Assembly: GCA_024230695.1 (NCBI GenBank) | Contig: JAAERC010000263.1 | Location: 1-6,941, forward strand | From: Candidatus Zixiibacteriota bacterium | Lineage (GTDB): Bacteria; Zixibacteria; MSB-5A5; GN15; PGXB01 | Length of the DNA stretch: 6,941 nt | Direction of reading: 5' to 3' | Part shown: positions 1 through 6,941 of the stretch, piece by piece | Position numbering within the stretch: the stretch's first letter is position 1 | How the letters are laid out: every line of letters starts with the position of its first letter | Notes under the pieces: generated by a model | Databases searched by the model: none | Seen by the model: only the letters and a program-made list of their open reading frames with translations | What the model was told of the DNA's origin: nothing | Program-made: the position numbers and the translations under genes

Positions 1-364
1 ATTAGTTAAAGGAAACTACCAGATAGCAGTTGATGCCTTAAGGAAAGGCATGAAAGCCAGTCCCAATTTTGATTTTGGAATTATTTTGGCAAAAGCATTA
101 ACTAAATCGGGCAATTATAATGAGGCTATACATTTGTATGAGTATTTATTATCCAATTATACAGAAAGATTCAGATTATACCAAGGGATTGAATCTGTAA
201 AAGCGTATTATTATCTCGGTATTGCCTATGAAAATGCAAATCAGATAAGTAAAGCGAAAACTCAATATAAAAAATTTATTGGCATTTGGAAAAATGCCGA
301 TACCAAATTTGATTCAATTGAAGATGCCAAAAAACGATTATTACAATTAAATAAAGGCACCTAA
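1..364 (+). CDS. TPR-repeat protein, C-terminal part (5' end outside window)
   Basis: The reading frame is open from base 2 with no stop before TAA at 362-364, so the visible 120 residues are the end of a longer protein; the ATG at 50 is an internal Met, not a convincing start. The sequence is helical with TPR spacing: pieces such as GNYNEAIHLYEYLL and VKAYYYLGIAYENANQ carry the small and aromatic residues typical of TPR helices A and B. Its last 56 residues align without gaps to the end of the minus-strand TPR/anti-sigma protein next door (27 of 56 identical by my count, including SVK-YYYL, Q--KA and IWK-AD). The two are therefore paralogues facing each other. By analogy this gene may also encode a TolB-like/TPR membrane sensor, but its N-terminus is not visible. 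No terminator hairpin separates it from its neighbour, and the two stop codons overlap. Confidence 0.85.
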   Translation, partial: LVKGNYQIAVDALRKGMKASPNFDFGIILAKALTKSGNYNEAIHLYEYLLSNYTERFRLYQGIESVKAYYYLGIAYENANQISKAKTQYKKFIGIWKNADTKFDSIEDAKKRLLQLNKGT

Positions 365-2631
365 GAGTTACTAGTTAATCTTGTCACTCTTTTTTGGGCG
401 TCATCAATTAATTCCATTCCCTCATCTGCATCTTTCCAAATTCTAAGGAATGTTTTATAATTTTCAATAGCCTTCAGATATTGATCGGAATTTTCAAAAG
501 CTAGAGCCAAATAATAGTATAATTTCACTGAATAAATAGCAAAATATGAACGCTGGGCACTATACTCATTTCGGATTTTTTCAAATTCAGTAATAGCATC
601 TTCATATCTCTCGGCCAAACTGTAAGTTTTCCCTAACATATATCTGACAACAAACTCGCCATTATAATCTCTTGATTTTTCAAAACTGGTACAAGCCATA
701 TCCAAATTTCCCTCGGCTAATTCAATGGCGCCACGAGCATACCAGTATGTATAGTGCATCCCATCGACTTCCTCAACAAACTGTTTTAATTCAGCCAATT
801 TCTCTTTTGCTGTGATCAAATCGCCATTTTCGGCAAGAATCTGAATCCCCAAATATCTATAATATGCCTTATTAGTTGGATTGACTTGATTGTAAAGGCT
901 AATAGTTGTATCGTTTTCCTTAAGTGCCATCAACAAATTATTCTGTCCGATAAATATTCTTGATTTGTAATAATGCAATAAGGCATAATCTTCTTTAAGT
1001 GAGTTAATTGCAATATCAAATTTATCTAAGGCTTTATCAAATTTACCCTGGAACAATGGAATTAATGCCTTATATCTTAAGACAGTATAACTATCGCCTC
1101 CTGTATCCAATATTAAGTTTATACAACTATCGGCATTATCATATTGCTGGCCAAAAACATACATCAATGCCAGTCCTTTTAAAGAAGCTATAAAATCAGG
1201 CTTTATCGATAGCGCTTTTTTATATGATTCAATGGCATATTCAATCATCCCGTTAAACGCATAAATTTCCGCTTTGGAATCAAATGGGTTTGGTTCATTT
1301 GGTGCCAATTCAATATATTTATCGATAGCTAGTAATGCTTTTTCAAAATCGCCAATATTATTATATACATAAGCTAGTTGATTATAGGGATCTTTAAAAC
1401 TAGGATCTAATTCAATAGCCTTATTAAATAAAGCGATCGCACTATCGTACTGTTGAAGACCGCTATTATAAAATCCCAAATAATAGTAGGCATCCTTTTC
1501 ATCCGGATATCTATTGACAATTTTGTGGAGTTCATCCAAGGCACTATTGTAGTCATTAATGACCATTGCTTCAAGGTGTTTGATATAATGTTTTTCCTTC
1601 CAGGTAACATTATCTGAATATTCAATTGCCTTGGATAAAAGTGAAATATCCTTAAGACCAGCCAAAGCATAATAGGCCATAGCAAAAGTTGAATCATATT
1701 CAATCGCTTTTTCAAAATATTTTATGGCTTCATCTTTGTAATATTTCCTCAACGTCTCATTACCCAATATATAGTAGTGATAAGCCTTGGCAGAATGAGT
1801 AGTCACATCGGCCACAGCCGGATCATGTTCATCGTAAGCCTCGGCGGGAAGAGCCAAATCAGTTTTAATCTCGGAAGATAGCATATCAACAATTGAAAAG
1901 ATATCCTGAGACTCATCTCCAATGATTCTTTGGGTCGCGACAACATCACCATTGGAAATATTTATAATTTGTGAAGTCAGAATTAAATGAGGATTTACCT
2001 GTAAAATACTGCCACTTAATAGCCATCTGGACCTTGATTTTTGTGCTACTTCGGACGCAACACTCTTATCGATCTTTTTGATTCCCTCTCGGCCAAGCAG
2101 TTTTAAAATATCATAAAGCCGCTGACTCGAGACAACCTGCATATATTGAGATTCTGCCAGGTCAGTAATTAAAAGATTTGTCGCAATTTCGCCAAATTGT
2201 AAAGAATCATTTGGCTCAGCCAAATTTTCAAAATACATAATTGCTAACCGGTTTTCGGCCGCAATTGCCTCTCCCGATGGTTGGAAGTCGATTTTCCAGG
2301 GTTTAATTATAAGAAATAGTAAAATGATTACAGTCGCAACTGAAGTAGGAACAAGAGAACGCCATATTTTATTACCAAATAGCCGTTTCCTTTCAGTTCT
2401 AATAGTTTTTGAAGACATATCTTCATTTTTAGAGATGTCTTGAACTACTTCTTGCACTTCATCATAAAATCGAATATGTTTGGCGACATCCTTAAACTGC
2501 TGAACCTTATTAAAACAATCTTCGCACTCGATAAGATGAACTTCGAATTGCTGGTGGTCATCATCTGATAACATACCCAGTTCATATAAATGAAGAATAT
2601 CTCCAAAATGTTTATTAGTACATTCACCCAT
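361..2631 (-). CDS. Transmembrane anti-sigma factor fused to TolB-like domain and TPR array
   Basis: This 756-residue protein probably holds the adjacent sigma factor inactive and responds to an extracytoplasmic signal. Residues 1-45 form a zinc-finger anti-sigma domain with C4, H8 and a H32-x3-C36-x2-C39 motif. A basic stretch (RTERKRLFGNKIWR) precedes one hydrophobic helix at about 92-110, which predicts N-terminus inside and C-terminus outside. Residues 128-259 resemble the TolB/FlgO-like domain found before TPRs in CadC-type regulators, adenylate cyclases and Ser/Thr kinases: an AIMYFENL strand, a WLLSGSI strand and an end near DIFSIVDMLSSEI. From about 282 to the end there are many TPRs, clearest at 380-480. 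The ATG at 2631 is chosen because GGGAGG lies 11 nt upstream; an in-frame TTG at 2640 is only 2 nt from that site. The sigma gene ends one base before this start, so the two are probably translationally coupled. Domain calls are by eye. Confidence 0.88.
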   Translation of the reverse strand: MGECTNKHFGDILHLYELGMLSDDDHQQFEVHLIECEDCFNKVQQFKDVAKHIRFYDEVQEVVQDISKNEDMSSKTIRTERKRLFGNKIWRSLVPTSVATVIILLFLIIKPWKIDFQPSGEAIAAENRLAIMYFENLAEPNDSLQFGEIATNLLITDLAESQYMQVVSSQRLYDILKLLGREGIKKIDKSVASEVAQKSRSRWLLSGSILQVNPHLILTSQIINISNGDVVATQRIIGDESQDIFSIVDMLSSEIKTDLALPAEAYDEHDPAVADVTTHSAKAYHYYILGNETLRKYYKDEAIKYFEKAIEYDSTFAMAYYALAGLKDISLLSKAIEYSDNVTWKEKHYIKHLEAMVINDYNSALDELHKIVNRYPDEKDAYYYLGFYNSGLQQYDSAIALFNKAIELDPSFKDPYNQLAYVYNNIGDFEKALLAIDKYIELAPNEPNPFDSKAEIYAFNGMIEYAIESYKKALSIKPDFIASLKGLALMYVFGQQYDNADSCINLILDTGGDSYTVLRYKALIPLFQGKFDKALDKFDIAINSLKEDYALLHYYKSRIFIGQNNLLMALKENDTTISLYNQVNPTNKAYYRYLGIQILAENGDLITAKEKLAELKQFVEEVDGMHYTYWYARGAIELAEGNLDMACTSFEKSRDYNGEFVVRYMLGKTYSLAERYEDAITEFEKIRNEYSAQRSYFAIYSVKLYYYLALAFENSDQYLKAIENYKTFLRIWKDADEGMELIDDAQKRVTRLTSNS

Positions 2632-2632
2632 A

Positions 2633-3172
2633 TTAATCAATACCTCCCTTTTCCAGACAGGATGCTAACATTGATCTGGCTCTCGATAAGATTACATAAA
2701 GGTTATTGGGCGTAATTTCCAGTTTTTTGCAAATTTCATTAACTTTATATCCCTGAAAATGGAGATTCAGTATTCTGGCATACCGCATATTTATTTTGCC
2801 TATTTTCCTTAGGCAGTCCAATAATTGCGGGGCCAAGATGGGATCTGGCTCCCAGGTTCTAAATTCTCCCGCTTGATTATCCGATGACGAAGAAATAATC
2901 TCTCCATGCTTTTTGGATTTTCGAAAATAATTTAACAACTTATTTTGAAGGACGTTGTAAGCCCATGCGGCAAAACTGGTTTCAAAATTAATTTTCTTAT
3001 ATTCCTTAATAATAGTAAACATCGCATCCTGAACTATTTCTTTGGCATCTTCTTCATTTATATTCTTATGGTACAAAAAGAGGCGAAATCTTACAGTTAA
3101 CGTTTGAAGAAAAACAGCTTCTGACGTTTTATCTCCATTGCAGGCCAATTTATATAACTCATTGATTGTCAA
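2633..3172 (-). CDS. ECF-type RNA polymerase sigma factor (sigma-70 family)
   Basis: This 179-residue protein has the two-domain layout of an extracytoplasmic-function sigma factor, directing RNA polymerase to a specific promoter set. Region 2 spans about 24-86, with DAKEIVQDAMFTIIKEY (42-58) as the core-binding 2.2-like helix and FAAWAYNVLQNKLLNYFRK (67-85) as the -10 recognition part. Region 4 spans about 118-174, with a helix-turn-helix near VNEICKKLEITPNNLYVIL that would contact the -35 element. The start is TTG at 3172: an in-frame stop (TGA) lies two codons upstream, the next in-frame ATG would remove most of region 2, and AGGG sits 7 nt upstream of the TTG. The downstream neighbour is a zinc-finger anti-sigma protein, the usual partner of this family. 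It diverges from the Kelch/dockerin genes, which are possible targets (inference only). Confidence 0.9.
   Translation of the reverse strand: MTINELYKLACNGDKTSEAVFLQTLTVRFRLFLYHKNINEEDAKEIVQDAMFTIIKEYKKINFETSFAAWAYNVLQNKLLNYFRKSKKHGEIISSSSDNQAGEFRTWEPDPILAPQLLDCLRKIGKINMRYARILNLHFQGYKVNEICKKLEITPNNLYVILSRARSMLASCLEKGGID
2643..2648 (-). promoter_or_regulatory. Ribosome binding site deciding the anti-sigma start
   Basis: Read on the minus strand this is GGGAGG, inside the last codons of the sigma gene. It lies 11 nt from the ATG at 2631 but only 2 nt from the in-frame TTG at 2640, so it favours the ATG. Its place within the upstream gene also supports co-transcription and coupled translation. 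Confidence 0.7.
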
Positions 3173-3211
3173 ATTTCATCCCTGACTTATTAAACCTTAC
3201 CGAGAAAATAT

Positions 3212-3239
3212 ACTATATAGATTTAGGATTGGCAATCAA
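3212..3239 (-). promoter_or_regulatory. Candidate sigma-70-like promoter for the left sigma/anti-sigma operon
   Basis: On the minus strand, TTGATT (3239-3234) is followed by a 16-nt spacer and TATAGT (3217-3212). These match the TTGACA/TATAAT consensus at 4 of 6 and 5 of 6 positions. Predicted transcription would begin near 3205, giving a 5' leader of about 33 nt that contains the AGGG site before the TTG start. The -10 overlaps an 8-nt palindrome, CTATATAG (3213-3220). This is a by-eye match in AT-rich DNA and may be chance. Confidence 0.4.
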
Positions 3240-3346
3240 TTCCCCCGATCCAACCACTCTTATAATTAAATTTATGTAAGATTCCAGCGATATATGACCC
3301 ATTTGAAGAAAATGGAATAGGTGGAATAACGTAACACACAATTATT

Positions 3347-3355: not shown

Positions 3356-4801
3356 ATGCGTAAAGTCTTATGTTTATTAATTTGTATAGGACTCTTTAGT
3401 TGCTCGGGGACTGTGTTGGCGCAAAGTGGTTACTGGTTTGATCGAACCGATATGCCAACCGCGAGGCAGGAAATCCTGCCAGGAGAATTGGATGGCAAAA
3501 TTTATGTGATTGGCGGCTGGCTGGATGGCTACAATATCACCGATATTGTTGAGGTTTATGATCCGGCAACAAACAGTTGGTCAAGTGCGGCATCGTTACC
3601 TACCAATCGACATCATTGCGCCGCGGTGGCGGTCGATGGTATTCTTTATGTTATTGGCGGTTATACTAATACTACCGCCGGGGGCTGGATACCTACACCA
3701 ATAACTCTGGCTTATGATTCAGACACTGATACCTGGACCCAACGGGCATCGATGAATGTTGCCCGCGGTGAACATAGTGCTATCGCTTATAATGGCAAAA
3801 TATATGTTACAGGTGGCAATATAGTACTGGGAGCTGTTACTCCTATTGTTGAGGTGTACGATCCTGCTACCGATACATGGACGCAACTGGCCAATATGAT
3901 AACTCCCCGGCATCATCATGCCTCTGCTGTGGTTGATGACACATTAATTTATGTAGTTGGGGGAAGACAGGGATACTTTGGTGCATATACAATGATCGGT
4001 GCTGTTGAAGCTTATGCGCCAGCCAGCGATACTTGGTACAGTATCACCACGATGCCGAAACCACGCGGTGGTCTGTCGGCTGCTGGAATCGATGGTAAGC
4101 TGTATATATTCGGCGGCGAAATTCCGGGGATTTTTGATGAGGTCGAAGAGTATGATCCGGATTTGAATATCTGGACCGAATTAACACCGATGTTAATCCC
4201 GCGCCATGGAACAGCGGCGGCCATTGTTGGCGATACAGTTTACATTATTGGCGGTTCCTACTGCGAAATGATGTGTACTGATAATTCCAATCAAGGATTT
4301 GTTTTGGGCACTTGTATCGATACCGACCATGATGGTTACGGTGATACCGATGATCCGCTGAACAGCTGTCCCCTTGATAACTGCCCTGAAATATATAATC
4401 CTGAGCAACTCGACGCTGATGACGACGGGGTTGGCGATATGTGTGATGAATGCCCTTTTGATTATAACCCGGGTGGCGAAGATACTGATGTTGATGGCAT
4501 TCAGGATGCCTGCGATAATTGTCCCGATCATTTTAATCCCGGACAAGAAGATACTAATGGTAACGACGTTGGCGATCTCTGTGATTATATATGTGGTGAC
4601 ATTGACGGAACTCCGGAGATAAATATTCTTGATATTGTTTTTCTCATAAATAATGTCTACAAATCGGGACCTGATCCTGACCCTCTCGAATCAGCCGATG
4701 TAAATCATGATTTAATAATCAATATTCTCGATATTGTTTATTTAATTAATTACATCTACAAAGGCGATTCCGAGCCGGAGTGCATCATTTGGATAGTCTA
4801 A
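3356..4801 (+). CDS. Secreted Kelch beta-propeller protein with TSP3-like repeats and C-terminal dockerin
   Basis: This 481-residue exported protein starts with a signal peptide (MRKVLCLLICIGLF..., probable cleavage after VLA at about 22; an LFSC at 13-16 makes a lipoprotein a weaker alternative). Residues 25-302 hold six Kelch repeat units, each with a hydrophobic strand ending in Gly-Gly (IYVIGG, LYVIGG, IYVTGG, IYVVGG, LYIFGG, VYIIGG) and, in the first five, a later Tyr and Trp (VEVYDPATNSW). The sixth blade seems to be closed by the N-terminal YWFDRTDMP strand. Residues 321-410 are Asp/Asn/Cys-rich TSP3-like calcium-binding repeats (DNCP...NPGQEDTNGNDVGDLCD). Residues 411-470 form a type I-like dockerin with two calcium loops, DIDGTPEINILD and DVNHDLIINILD. 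The role is probably carbohydrate or protein binding at the cell surface; the ligand is unknown and no enzymatic residues are recognised. It ends in tandem in-frame stops TAATAA and is followed 55 nt later by a related gene, likely in one operon. Confidence 0.92.
   Translation: MRKVLCLLICIGLFSCSGTVLAQSGYWFDRTDMPTARQEILPGELDGKIYVIGGWLDGYNITDIVEVYDPATNSWSSAASLPTNRHHCAAVAVDGILYVIGGYTNTTAGGWIPTPITLAYDSDTDTWTQRASMNVARGEHSAIAYNGKIYVTGGNIVLGAVTPIVEVYDPATDTWTQLANMITPRHHHASAVVDDTLIYVVGGRQGYFGAYTMIGAVEAYAPASDTWYSITTMPKPRGGLSAAGIDGKLYIFGGEIPGIFDEVEEYDPDLNIWTELTPMLIPRHGTAAAIVGDTVYIIGGSYCEMMCTDNSNQGFVLGTCIDTDHDGYGDTDDPLNSCPLDNCPEIYNPEQLDADDDGVGDMCDECPFDYNPGGEDTDVDGIQDACDNCPDHFNPGQEDTNGNDVGDLCDYICGDIDGTPEINILDIVFLINNVYKSGPDPDPLESADVNHDLIINILDIVYLINYIYKGDSEPECIIWIV
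4511..4762 (+). repeat. Shared TSP3-dockerin cassette, copy 1 (in Kelch gene)
   Basis: These 252 nt encode residues 386-469 of the Kelch protein. They align without gaps to 5835-6086: by hand count 217 of 252 bases and 79 of 84 residues are the same. Most differences fall at third codon positions. Confidence 0.9.
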
Positions 4802-4846
4802 TAAAAAAATGGGAATATTTTATAACAAAACAGTGGTAAAATTTTT

Positions 4847-4853
4847 GGGAGAG
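4847..4853 (+). promoter_or_regulatory. Ribosome binding site deciding the start of the second propeller gene
   Basis: GGGAGAG lies 3-7 nt before the ATG at 4857. The in-frame ATG at 4809 has no such site and would put 16 residues in front of an otherwise normal signal peptide, so 4857 is preferred. Confidence 0.7.
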
Positions 4854-4856
4854 AAC

Positions 4857-6122
4857 ATGTTTAAACAATTAATAAATTTCATCATATTAGCAATTTTATT
4901 ATTGCCCGTTTTATCAAGCGGGCAAGTCACAGTTGCCAATCCTGAACATGCCACCTATGATGTGGTAAATAACCGTTATCTTATTTGTAGTTTTTATGCC
5001 GGATCAGTTGTAGCAATTGATAATGAGGGAACGACATCTGATTTTGTCACAAGTATAGGCAATGCCTACGCTAATCATATTGTCGGAAATACTCTTTTTG
5101 TTACATGCGGACAATACTATGTAAGAGCATATGATTTGACTACAAAAAGTTTATTGTGGGTCAAATACATTCCAGGTGCTAATCAATTGGATGGACTGAC
5201 TGCCGACAACGATGGTCACTTATACCTTATCGACGCCGTTAATGGAGCGGGAGAAATATTTAAACTTACAATCAGTGACCAGACCATTGAAACTTTTGTT
5301 GGGAGTGGTCTTCCGGGGTGGCCGCAGGATGTAATTTTTGATGAAACTAATAATCGTCTGCTACTGGCGTCAATTGGGTCCTCTGCCCCGATTGTAGCCG
5401 TAGATTTGACCTCCGCTTCTATTACTTTATTAGTAACAACGCCCTTTGGCGATATGGACGGTATCGCGATGGATAATGACGGTAATGTTTACGTAACAAG
5501 TTATTATGACGGTACTATCTATAAGTACGACCAGACCTTTACTAATCCACCAACCTTAATATCAAGTACGCATTCGGGACCGGCCGGCCTCGGATATAAC
5601 CCAGTAGATAATATTCTGGCTGTTCCAAACTTTAATGCAAATCGAGTCGATCTGATTCCACTTGATGATAATGATAGTGATAATATTTTAGATTACATAG
5701 ATAATTGTCCCAATACGGCCAATACTGACCAAATTGATTCCGACGAAGATGGTGATGGTAATGCTTGCGATGGTTGCCCGGATATACCCAACCCGGGGCA
5801 TGAAGATGACGACATCGATGGAGTTGAAAATGCTTGCGATAACTGTCCAGAACACTATAACCCGGGACAAGAAGATAGTAACGGTAATGACGTAGGTGAC
5901 CTTTGCGATTATATTTGTGGTGATATAGACGGCACACCAGAAATAAATATTCTTGATGTGGTTTTTCTCATAAATAATGTTTACAAATCGGGACCTGACC
6001 CTGATCCGCTTGAATCAGCCGATGTGAACCATGATTTAATAATCAATATTCTCGATATTGTTTATTTGATTAACAACATTTACAAAAGCGGCCCAGACCC
6101 GGAATGTGTTGTTTGGATATAG
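4857..6122 (+). CDS. Secreted NHL/SMP-30-like beta-propeller with TSP3-like repeats and C-terminal dockerin
   Basis: This 421-residue exported protein begins with a signal peptide (MFKQLINFIILAILLLPVLSSGQ, cleavage probably near 20-23). Residues about 25-268 form repeated four-strand units in the style of NHL or SMP-30/gluconolactonase-like propellers: LDGLTADNDGHLYLID, WPQDVIFDETNNRLLLAS, MDGIAMDNDGNVYVTSYYDG and PAGLGYNPVDNILAVPN. Residues 270-350 are TSP3-like Asp/Cys-rich repeats and 351-410 a two-repeat dockerin almost identical to that of the Kelch protein. I see no clear catalytic set, so a binding or scaffold role is as likely as an enzyme. It follows the Kelch gene with no obvious terminator or promoter in the 55-nt gap, suggesting co-expression. 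The protein ends in PECVVWI, closely matching PECIIWIV in its neighbour. The propeller half is not obviously homologous to the Kelch half, so only the tail is shared. Confidence 0.88.
   Translation: MFKQLINFIILAILLLPVLSSGQVTVANPEHATYDVVNNRYLICSFYAGSVVAIDNEGTTSDFVTSIGNAYANHIVGNTLFVTCGQYYVRAYDLTTKSLLWVKYIPGANQLDGLTADNDGHLYLIDAVNGAGEIFKLTISDQTIETFVGSGLPGWPQDVIFDETNNRLLLASIGSSAPIVAVDLTSASITLLVTTPFGDMDGIAMDNDGNVYVTSYYDGTIYKYDQTFTNPPTLISSTHSGPAGLGYNPVDNILAVPNFNANRVDLIPLDDNDSDNILDYIDNCPNTANTDQIDSDEDGDGNACDGCPDIPNPGHEDDDIDGVENACDNCPEHYNPGQEDSNGNDVGDLCDYICGDIDGTPEINILDVVFLINNVYKSGPDPDPLESADVNHDLIINILDIVYLINNIYKSGPDPECVVWI
5835..6086 (+). repeat. Shared TSP3-dockerin cassette, copy 2 (in NHL-like propeller gene)
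   Basis: These 252 nt encode residues 327-410 of the second propeller protein and are the direct-repeat partner of 4511-4762. The longest identical run by eye is 38 nt (6030-6067 against 4706-4743), in the second dockerin calcium loop and helix. Confidence 0.9.
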
Positions 6123-6239: not shown

Positions 6240-6268
6240 TTGTTTTTTTGAATCGTTTTGGCTATAAT
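6240..6268 (+). promoter_or_regulatory. Candidate promoter of the right sigma gene, giving a leaderless mRNA
   Basis: TTGTTT (6240-6245), a 17-nt spacer and a perfect TATAAT (6263-6268) form a good sigma-70-like promoter. Transcription would start near 6275, about 2 nt before the ATG at 6277. No Shine-Dalgarno sequence is visible before that ATG, which fits a leaderless transcript. The alternative TTG start at 6268 begins within the -10 box and could not be on this mRNA. The rest of the 6123-6276 gap shows only the hairpin annotated separately. Confidence 0.5.
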
Positions 6269-6276
6269 TGAGTCTA

Positions 6277-6846
6277 ATGAATGAAAGAGAATTAATATTG
6301 GCGGCCCAAAGCGGTGATTTTGATGCATTCTCCAAATTGATAGGAGAATATAAAGACAAAATCTACCGCCTGGCCCTGAAGCTTTCTAACAATCGTGAGG
6401 ATGCTGAGGATATTGTGCAGGAGACATTTTTAAAGGCAGTTGATAACATCGATAAATTTCGATTAGAATCATCATTTGGAACATGGCTTTATTCGATTGC
6501 GCTAAACCATTTCAGATCAGACGCCGTCAAAGATAAAAGAATGGATTTAAAACCTATAGAAGAATATTTACCCGAATCTCATAATGAGGATATTTCCAAT
6601 CTATATGATTGGGGCGATCCACATCATCATTTTGAGAATAAGCAGATCATGGAGATTATAGAAGCCGGTTTGGCTGAAATGAAACATATTTATAGTGGCC
6701 CTTTTATTTTGCGTTATATGGAAGATATGCCAGTGAAAGATGTAGCAGAGATATTTAATCTTTCGGTGCCGGCGACAAAATCTAGGATTCTCAGGGCCCG
6801 ATTGGCATTACGAGATAGATTATCTCAGAGTTTTCAGGAGAACTGA
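6277..6846 (+). CDS. ECF-type RNA polymerase sigma factor (RpoE-like)
   Basis: This 189-residue protein is a canonical ECF sigma factor, closer to the RpoE-like pattern than the left-hand one. Region 2 spans about 18-84: YRLALKLSNNREDAEDIVQE is region 2.1/2.2, followed by FLKAVDNIDKF and the -10 recognition segment FGTWLYSIALNHFRSD (68-82). A linker of about 40 residues is acidic and contains three adjacent histidines (116-118). Region 4 spans about 124-186, with the helix-turn-helix near VKDVAEIFNLSVPATKSRI. The ATG at 6277 is preferred; an in-frame TTG at 6268 has no ribosome binding site and lies in a perfect -10 box. The gene is followed one base later by a zinc-finger anti-sigma start, the same spacing as in the left pair. 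Its targets are unknown. Confidence 0.92.
   Translation: MNERELILAAQSGDFDAFSKLIGEYKDKIYRLALKLSNNREDAEDIVQETFLKAVDNIDKFRLESSFGTWLYSIALNHFRSDAVKDKRMDLKPIEEYLPESHNEDISNLYDWGDPHHHFENKQIMEIIEAGLAEMKHIYSGPFILRYMEDMPVKDVAEIFNLSVPATKSRILRARLALRDRLSQSFQEN
6836..6840 (+). promoter_or_regulatory. Ribosome binding site of the right anti-sigma gene
   Basis: AGGAG, within the last codons of the sigma gene, lies 7 nt before the ATG at 6848. This supports the start and coupled translation of the pair. Confidence 0.7.
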
Positions 6847-6847
6847 A

Positions 6848-6941
6848 ATGAAACATTGCAGTAAATACATTCAGAATATCGCTGATTTTATTGATGGCGA
6901 AATCGATGAGACACTTTGTGCCGATATCGAAAAACATCTCA
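6848..6941 (+). CDS. Zinc-finger anti-sigma factor, N-terminal fragment (runs off window)
   Basis: Only 31 codons are visible. They begin MKHCSKYIQNIADFIDGEID and reach an EKHL at 28-31. Cys4, the helical DFIDGEID segment and His30 match the start of the zf-HC2-type anti-sigma zinc finger (Cys, then H-x3-C-x2-C); the last two cysteines should lie just past the edge. It would bind and restrain the sigma factor encoded one base upstream. Whether it has a membrane helix or a sensor domain like the left anti-sigma protein cannot be seen. The start has AGGAG at 7 nt. Confidence 0.82.
   Translation, partial: MKHCSKYIQNIADFIDGEIDETLCADIEKHL

Follow-up and report, generated by a model that had tools for sequence, protein, structure and literature searches.

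Extracytoplasmic function (ECF) sigma factors usually autoregulate through a promoter ahead of their own gene (PMC8103513, PMC3817407), with about 55% of them autoregulated (PMC8103513), and ECF promoters are usually sought in front of the sigma gene (PMC3817407), according to the passages of these papers drawn on here. Here we analyse a 6,941-nucleotide (nt) stretch of a Candidatus Zixiibacteriota bacterium (GenBank contig JAAERC010000263.1, assembly GCA_024230695.1; hereafter the window), in which an ECF sigma gene is followed by the gene of a membrane anti-sigma factor. In contrast to the usual autoregulation as those passages describe it, the predicted cognate site of this sigma factor lies past the sigma start codon: one ECF-type site is embedded in the sigma coding sequence, and a near-identical partner precedes the divergently transcribed neighbour.

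The closest described systems share parts of this arrangement. Class I ZAS/zf-HC2 anti-sigma factors that act with ECF sigma factors are alike in the zf-HC2 domain with its C...H-x3-C-x2-C pattern, the membrane helix and the overlap with the sigma gene, whereas the outside part here is a TolB-like domain followed by a long array of tetratricopeptide repeats (TPR), and the sigma-type sites lie inside the sigma gene and before the divergent gene, not before the sigma gene. CadC-type and Ser/Thr-kinase proteins have the helix-TolB-TPR module in common with our protein, but the output domain here is an anti-sigma domain. RsgI proteins have outside sensor arms. In Clostridium thermocellum, several paralogous SigI/RsgI sigma factors are tied to a dockerin-based surface system, as stated in the parts of PMC6056542 and PMC4711584 used here; the likeness, as far as those parts go, consists in paralogous sigma factors linked to dockerin proteins, whereas the sigma and anti-sigma families differ and the predicted target here is the divergent neighbour. 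Consistent with that difference, Pfam gives an ECF sigma factor and zf-HC2 with no RsgI model, and no SigI or RsgI model appears in the NCBIfam rows (for the sigma protein, the best 25 of 63). ECF42 sigma factors carry a C-terminal TPR domain (PMC8103513, in the passages used) and thus also combine an ECF sigma factor with TPR, there on the sigma protein and here on the membrane anti-sigma protein.

In the open-licence literature we found no description of an inner cognate promoter in an ECF sigma gene, and an earlier description is possible; nothing was found there on feedback of this kind, on the ECF/anti-sigma classification or on the dockerins of Zixibacteria, and the one paper found for anti-sigma factors combined with TolB and TPR concerns Leptospira, judging by its title. 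By title, the same literature gave no related description of an anti-sigma domain joined to FlgO and TPR, and nothing on the present system for Zixibacteria sigma factors.

A bipartite site recurs before the divergent gene and inside the sigma gene

Upstream of the sigma genes, TG[TC]AAGA is enriched and points away from sigma. A second block follows, with a nearly fixed C 25 letters past the first T (21 of 24 aligned matches). The bipartite consensus, TGYAAGAWW, 12 nt, NCAMC, is directed from the sigma gene to the divergent gene, and its two-block geometry resembles what we take to be that of ECF promoters. A site matrix was iterated and scored leave-one-out, with the 95% quantile of shuffled sequence as threshold. 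The divergent site exceeds this threshold in 49 of 59 loci when read away from sigma and in 1 of 59 when read toward it. A cognate site pointing at sigma within 420 nt upstream is found in 1 of 59 loci, so these genes depart from the pattern of a promoter before the own gene. This is no bar to the ECF class, because only about 55% of ECF sigma factors are autoregulated (PMC8103513, in the passages used).

The matrix also matches one homologous place inside the sigma genes. The matrix input reached only the first four sigma codons. In 58 of 60 genes, this homologous place scores highest within the sigma coding sequence. Furthermore, each inner site resembles its own divergent site: over 49 loci the own pair agrees at 11.33 of 16 core letters, compared with 8.95 after permutation (0/20000 permutations, z 13.2). 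Letter 24 is shared by the two sites in 47 of 49 loci (17.3 expected) and letter 2 in 43 of 49 (17.0 expected). In the window, the two sites have 14 of 16 core letters in common. No locus-specific match extends to the spacer between the boxes (own-pair z −1.5) or to downstream sequence (z 0.8), and other in-frame shifts of the inner sequence give z −2.9 to 3.3 versus 13.2 in register. The anti-sigma loci contain 79 matches above 15 bits, of which 41 fall on divergent sites, 29 on inner sites and 9 elsewhere, while 20 kinase loci yield two such matches, both around a further sigma gene.

In the first set, training and scoring of the matrix used the same loci, a limit that held-out and matrix-free tests address. 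A profile of 40 sigma factors, run against the same 132 Zixiibacteriota genomes, gave 53 loci outside the first set, with 14 weak or partial sigma matches excluded. With the old matrix, the inner place is the best match in 46 of these 53 genes and the own pair agrees at 10.06 versus 8.30 of 16 letters (z 9.3, 0/20000). Of the 28 held-out loci whose divergent score exceeds the threshold, all 28 share letter 24 between the two sites (18.2 expected) and 25 share letter 2 (17.1 expected). A matrix-free scan that uses the inner core only (112 loci) gives z 14.4; at an identity of at least 12/16 it finds a partner away from sigma in 46 loci and toward sigma in 4, compared with 7.6% of other-locus pairs.

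Several loci were handled separately. L002 (same place as L069) and L086 (a run of N at the sigma position) were excluded. L067, L081 and L099, whose sigma start is cut by a contig end, were left out of upstream analyses; for L067 and L099, the sequence of the inner site is missing as well. The contig-end locus G001:C50 lay outside the first set and is counted among the held-out loci as L130. Two held-out sigma genes, those of L129 and L137, had been seen before the held-out test, though only once the matrix existed. Divergent sites of 7.26 bits or less were excluded from the 49- and 28-locus counts. For L063, L076 and L077 a better-fitting divergent site lies outside the stretch used, and the original site was retained.

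Alternatives to an inner promoter

One could read the inner match as mere protein conservation, the segment T-V-R-F-R-L-F happening to resemble a promoter. The place is indeed conserved in the protein, and in 6 of 60 sigma genes the residue at the embedded position is neither Arg nor Ser, which also favours that reading. Codon choice argues otherwise: the embedded Arg codon is AGA or AGG in 35 of 35 genes (299 of 1005 elsewhere in the same genes), and the embedded Ser codon is AGC or AGT in 19 of 19 (252 of 677 elsewhere). The exchange of Arg and Ser preserves AAG, and the match to the divergent site is locus-specific. We therefore regard protein conservation as the least probable of the explanations weighed here. 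Of 52 held-out genes with Arg at this position, 50 use AGR, and the two CGN exceptions, L169 and L172, are also without an inner site by score.

These sequence comparisons make recognition of both sites by the sigma factor a well supported reading. We infer from them that the inner site fires as a promoter, and it probably drives the anti-sigma gene. The same evidence underlies a different reading, in which sigma holoenzyme bound at the inner site makes polymerase pause or blocks its path, so that the sigma operon is transcribed less; there is precedent in that intragenic promoter-like sequences can cause sigma-dependent pausing (PMC10771440, in the passages used). However, inner and divergent sites correspond in spacing and in both boxes, and the divergent site is often found 53–130 nt ahead of a long open reading frame (ORF) with a hydrophobic N terminus, and a Shine-Dalgarno (SD)-like sequence precedes the anti-sigma start in 38 of 55 cases (control, 7), which would be useful for a separate transcript. 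We consider pausing unlikely.

If sigma translation started past the inner site, the sigma gene would be autoregulated in the ordinary way, from a promoter upstream of it. In favour of this, Pfam Sigma70_r2 matches frequently start near the site, and the third-position excess is weaker before it, with differences at codon positions 1, 2 and 3 of 55, 44 and 85 compared with 222, 177 and 481 in the rest of the gene (summed over 8 pairs). Against such a late start, residues L6, G13, L21 and F22 ahead of the site are at least 90% conserved and L25 is invariant in an alignment of 40 sigma factors, and Sigma70_ECF matches begin at residues 2–11 in 4 of 10 scanned proteins. A later start would presumably also remove region 2.1. 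We judge it very unlikely that translation begins there. Slightly less probable still is the idea that the inner transcript yields a truncated sigma factor that acts as a decoy for the anti-sigma factor: region 4 is still on that transcript, but the next complete gene on it is the anti-sigma gene.

In the first set, a recognition-helix residue follows a −35 letter

Residue V160 of the window sigma factor lies in the region 4.2 recognition helix, as judged from the Pfam r4_2 match and the helix-turn-helix pattern. Across 49 loci, residue 160 pairs with letter 2 of the divergent −35 box as V-T (20), S-C (13), I-A (9), T-T (3), L-T (2) and V-A (2). With letter 2 of the inner −35 box in 60 loci, the pairs are V-T (21), S-C (15), I-A (10), V-A (5), T-A (3), V-C (2), L-T (2), L-A (1) and T-T (1). 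This association connects the neighbouring sigma factor with the divergent site and does not draw on the inner one. In the 28 held-out loci above threshold, the pairs are V-T (17), S-C (2) and M-T (2), and V-C, S-G, T-A, T-T, V-A, I-T and Y-T occur once each.

Related loci are not independent of each other, and the associations were also counted as contrasts on trees. Counted over the whole best tree, residue 160 and letters 2, 22 and 24 show 4–5 contrasts matching in both states and none swapped, compared with 0–2.8 matching and 0–2.0 swapped contrasts for control positions.

Predicted targets and the promoter of the sigma gene

In the window, the first base of the divergent site lies 81 nt before the start codon of the Kelch-dockerin gene, and the gap from this gene to the SGL/NHL-like-dockerin gene is 7 nt. 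Dockerin-bearing proteins recur in this place: the dockerin pattern is present in the first divergent gene in 29 of 45 cases and in 27 of 312 other genes of the same loci. In 31 of 59 loci, an NHL-type relative is encoded divergently from sigma at a distance of up to 2.5 kb. Several divergent genes in L129–L181 are large and end in a GVYFYRL...KKMVLLK-like tail, which we take to be an end of the secretion-sorting type.

Whole genomes were searched with patterns that had been derived from the studied loci and are informative only as to scarcity elsewhere. TGTAAGATTN12CGGCC is matched exactly in G089 and G090 only at the divergent and the inner site of a single locus per genome, pointing to a very small regulon in these two genomes. 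TGYAAGAWWN12SSACC occurs exactly 5 times in five genomes taken together, and 4 of these matches are divergent sites of studied loci. The pattern TGATAGRWTN12TCAAC has three exact matches in G025, two of them at L141 (its divergent and its inner site); allowing one mismatch adds 10 more, versus 2 for a reversed control. The third exact match to the L141 consensus, at G025:C1:365268-365293, lies away from the sigma gene and is a possible extra target. In G022 the same pattern has one exact match (the inner site of L075) and three with one mismatch, one of them the divergent site. AT-rich pattern matches in G002 and G038 are at about control level.

A housekeeping-type promoter probably drives the sigma gene itself. 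The mean score of sigma-70-type sites before the sigma genes of the family is 8.29, compared with 7.75 in shuffled sequence (sd 0.08), while in the window region alone such sites are not above shuffles (6 found; shuffle mean 4.6, sd 2.3).

The predicted anti-sigma factor is a probable one-piece membrane protein with a TolB/TPR arm

A first-pass annotation of the window had described an ECF sigma gene followed by a 756-residue protein with a zinc finger, one membrane helix, a TolB-like domain and TPR, and coordinates, Pfam, hydropathy and structural models agree with that description. Its expectation that hidden Markov models would recognise the domains stood for the zinc finger and the TPR array and, for the window protein alone, did not for the TolB-like part. 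Specifically, zf-HC2 scores 23.2 bits on the whole window protein (cut-off 22.2) and 28.1 on the isolated domain, and it is matched in 49 of 49 isolated N-terminal domains, window included, which had been preselected from 63 by their Cys/His pattern; many TPR families match as well. FlgO stays below its cut-off of 22.6 both for the whole window protein (16.1 bits) and for its isolated domain (19.6). Among 59 isolated TolB-like domains, window included, FlgO is matched at E ≤ 0.01 in 51, CsgG in 26, LpoB in 16 and TolB_N in 3. The AlphaFold model of this domain (pLDDT 87.1) resembles PDB structures of LpoB, PelC, TolB, FlgT, CsgG and the CadC periplasmic domain; normalised by query length, the TM-scores are about 0.3–0.5. 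We call the domain FlgO-like because of the 51 of 59 matches and the fold. The full model (pLDDT 87.3) shows a helical array from about residue 281 to 755.

The zinc ligands were followed in an alignment of 115 proteins, consisting of the window protein and relatives from 120 listed matches after exclusion of 5 partial or kinase-type rows. C4 is present in 107 (6 gaps) and H32, C36 and C39 in 114 each, and the window protein has the C...H-x3-C-x2-C ligand pattern of ZAS proteins. Against the PDB, a profile of the zinc-finger domain matches 3hug (titled as a membrane protein; E 8.6e-8), which we take to be RslA, and more weakly RsiW 5wuq (E 0.014), DdvA 8rlz (0.035) and ChrR 2q1z (0.7).

A hydrophobic stretch lies between residue 55 and the KPW motif in 115 of 115 proteins, with a lowest mean hydropathy of 2.28, and a scan after residue 135 found no second stretch above 1.8 in any of them (residues 1–54 were unscanned). 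Net charge is higher on the N side of the helix in 100 of 115, which by the positive-inside rule places the zinc domain inside and the C terminus outside. The external C terminus that had been proposed is thus borne out as far as the charge rule goes, and the TolB/TPR arm is supported by that rule as lying outside the membrane. The protein has a TolB/CsgG/LpoB-type domain and then TPR, as in the TolB-like/FlgO plus TPR class, the outside placement again coming only from the charge rule. Domains, topology and strict pairing with the sigma gene make a one-piece transmembrane anti-sigma factor with an outside TolB/TPR arm well supported, and the TPR arm is a plausible sensor for release of the sigma factor.

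Pairing with the sigma gene and relatives of the anti-sigma factor

A search with residues 1–290 of the anti-sigma protein found 1134 proteins, including the window's own. Among the 120 matches listed, the named ones are Zixibacteria, except for one labelled Acidobacteriota and one named merely as 'bacterium'. At least 111 of 132 Zixiibacteriota genomes match the N-terminal 287 residues, with kinase-type and distant matches counted. The pairing set comprised 60 fetched anti-sigma-type regions, the window and the near relative L001 less one duplicate, or 63 genes. The survey of the architecture beside sigma genes that the first-pass annotation had proposed finds a sigma homologue directly in front in 62 of 63, the exception having a run of N at that place; the anti-sigma genes thus adjoin their cognate sigma genes, as in ZAS systems. 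The overlap is exactly 1, 4 or 8 nt in 40 of 62 pairs.

Ser/Thr kinases of the same phylum also bear the helix-TolB-TPR module, and a single protein combines zf-HC2 with a kinase domain; both findings support the view that the anti-sigma domain stands where a kinase would otherwise form the output. HRD and DFG motifs are present in 20 of 20 fetched kinase-type proteins, and matches that start at residue 45 or later, kinase type by length, reach identities of up to at least 61% among the matches listed. A sigma homologue lies within 2 kb of 1 of these 20 kinase-type genes, which served as controls. This one gene, L108 6528-9752 (−), found also in L137, encodes zf-HC2, a Ser/Thr kinase, a membrane helix, a TolB-like domain and TPR in one protein; its adjoining cognate sigma gene has an inner site of 13.2 bits but no clear divergent site (4.5). 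At least 4 changes are needed on the tree of kinase and anti-sigma types, and the strongly supported branches force only 1. Repeated swapping between kinase and anti-sigma domains was considered and is left unsupported by those branches.

In the held-out set, 45 of 53 sigma genes sit before a short zinc-finger protein (median 229 residues) that is without TolB/TPR and has a hydrophobic stretch in 41 of 45. Many of these loci carry the same pair of divergent and inner sites. Since many sigma genes before short zinc-finger proteins keep both sites, the pair is independent of the TolB/TPR arm; the arrangement looks like a property of the sigma family, with the arm as an interchangeable sensor.

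Genes and features of the window

The window sigma factor consists of sigma2 and sigma4 domains only, as in ECF proteins: Sigma70_r2 scores 34.4 bits (cut-off 24), Sigma70_r4_2 23.8 (slightly below its cut-off of 25.7) and, in NCBIfam, TIGR02937 59.8 (cut-off 42.9). The start of the anti-sigma gene adjoins the sigma stop codon (ATG) or overlaps it (alternative TTG at 2640, ORF then 361-2640, minus strand). L001, from Candidatus Zixiibacteriota, has an anti-sigma protein 62% identical to the window's and the same gene order of sigma, anti-sigma, Kelch-dockerin and NHL-dockerin genes. After its anti-sigma gene, L001 encodes at 8469-10916 (+) a kinase-TolB-TPR-like protein with nearly the same helix boundary sequence.

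Positions 2-364 (+) of the window hold a C-terminal fragment of a second TPR protein, tail to tail with the anti-sigma gene and 36% identical to anti-sigma residues 641–759 (TTG-start numbering); it probably represents a further TolB/TPR family member that is truncated where the contig ends. Another ECF sigma gene, of a different, SigW/RpoE-like kind, lies at 6268-6846 (+). It is followed at 6849-6941 by the start of an ORF with early Cys residues, cut by the contig end, which is perhaps a further zinc-finger anti-sigma gene.

Table 1. Coordinates of genes, domains and predicted sites in the window
Feature	Position	Strand	Details	Basis
ECF sigma factor gene	2633..3172	minus	179 residues, TTG start	ORF, Pfam, NCBIfam
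Intragenic ECF-type promoter (predicted)	3070..3095	minus	sigma codons 26-35; TGTAAGA 3095-3089, GTACC 3074-3070	matrix and matrix-free scan
Divergent ECF-type promoter (predicted)	3275..3300	plus	TGTAAGA 3275-3281, GACCC 3296-3300	matrix and matrix-free scan
Possible sigma-70-type promoter of sigma gene	3207..3235	minus	TTGCCA, 17 nt, TATATT	family-wide excess over shuffles
Anti-sigma factor gene	361..2631	minus	756 residues from ATG at 2631	ORF, Pfam
zf-HC2 anti-sigma domain	2482..2631	minus	residues 1-50, ligands C4/H32/C36/C39	Pfam, alignment, PDB profile
Single membrane helix	2296..2358	minus	about residues 92-112	hydropathy, model
TolB/FlgO/CsgG-like domain	1846..2274	minus	about residues 120-262	Pfam, fold match
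TPR array	364..1791	minus	about residues 281-756	Pfam, model
Predicted target gene	3356..4801	plus	Kelch, TSP3 and dockerin protein, hydrophobic N terminus	ORF, Pfam
Predicted second target gene	4809..6122	plus	SGL/NHL-like, TSP3 and dockerin protein	ORF, Pfam

Discussion

We think it likely that the window carries an ECF sigma/anti-sigma switch in which a divergent promoter serves the targets and an inner promoter feeds the inhibitor. In this model, the zinc domain of the anti-sigma factor would hold the sigma factor in the cytoplasm until an outside cue on the TolB/TPR arm releases it. The free sigma factor would then read two near-identical promoters: the divergent one would switch on two presumably secreted, dockerin-bearing propeller-type proteins, and the inner one would start a transcript inside the sigma gene that runs into the anti-sigma gene. 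Because the site lies past the sigma start codon, full-length sigma would not be raised by the inner promoter, and the sigma gene itself would be read from a housekeeping-type promoter. The sigma factor may thus raise its inhibitor and its targets but not its own full-length form, a built-in negative feedback with no upstream autoregulation.

Several observations weigh against this model and its parts. The inner site is below threshold in 6 of 60 first-set and 14 of 53 held-out loci, and the divergent site in 10 of 59 and 25 of 53. The matrix iteration was unsettled after 8 rounds. No ORF of at least 100 residues starts within the searched 400 nt in 11 of 59 loci, and a strong divergent site is present despite the lack of a near ORF in L046, L048, L049, L055, L070, L076 and L100. 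Residue 160 was picked by a scan of all sigma columns and not preset; its pairing with letter 2 has held-out exceptions (V-C, V-A, S-G and I-T, one each) and is hardly tested in that set, because most of its sigma factors have V there. Strongly supported branches leave 2–3 independent contrasts among those listed, too few for a sign test, and on the whole best tree letter 21 gives 5.5 matching and 1.1 swapped contrasts. A link between residue 78 and letter 24 was also tried and failed in independent pairs (1.0 of 9.7).

More broadly, we lean, with modest confidence, toward the view that this ECF sigma family keeps a cognate promoter within its coding sequence, which co-evolves letter by letter with the divergent promoter and with one recognition-helix residue, and that its members form near-private circuits of few promoters with negative feedback, whose inhibitors freely exchange their sensor part (a TolB/TPR arm, a short form or one with a kinase). 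The near-private part is weakened by the strong divergent sites without a near ORF and by the one-mismatch matches in G025.

A promoter inside the sigma gene would escape searches made in front of sigma genes, and coding and promoter constraints would overlap within one sigma gene. If the model is correct, the wiring raises inhibitor and target but not sigma itself, and the paralogues display a natural recognition rule at the −35 box, V160-T, S160-C and I160-A. The dockerin-bearing proteins would then be candidate targets for the regulators of a phylum known here from metagenome assemblies only.

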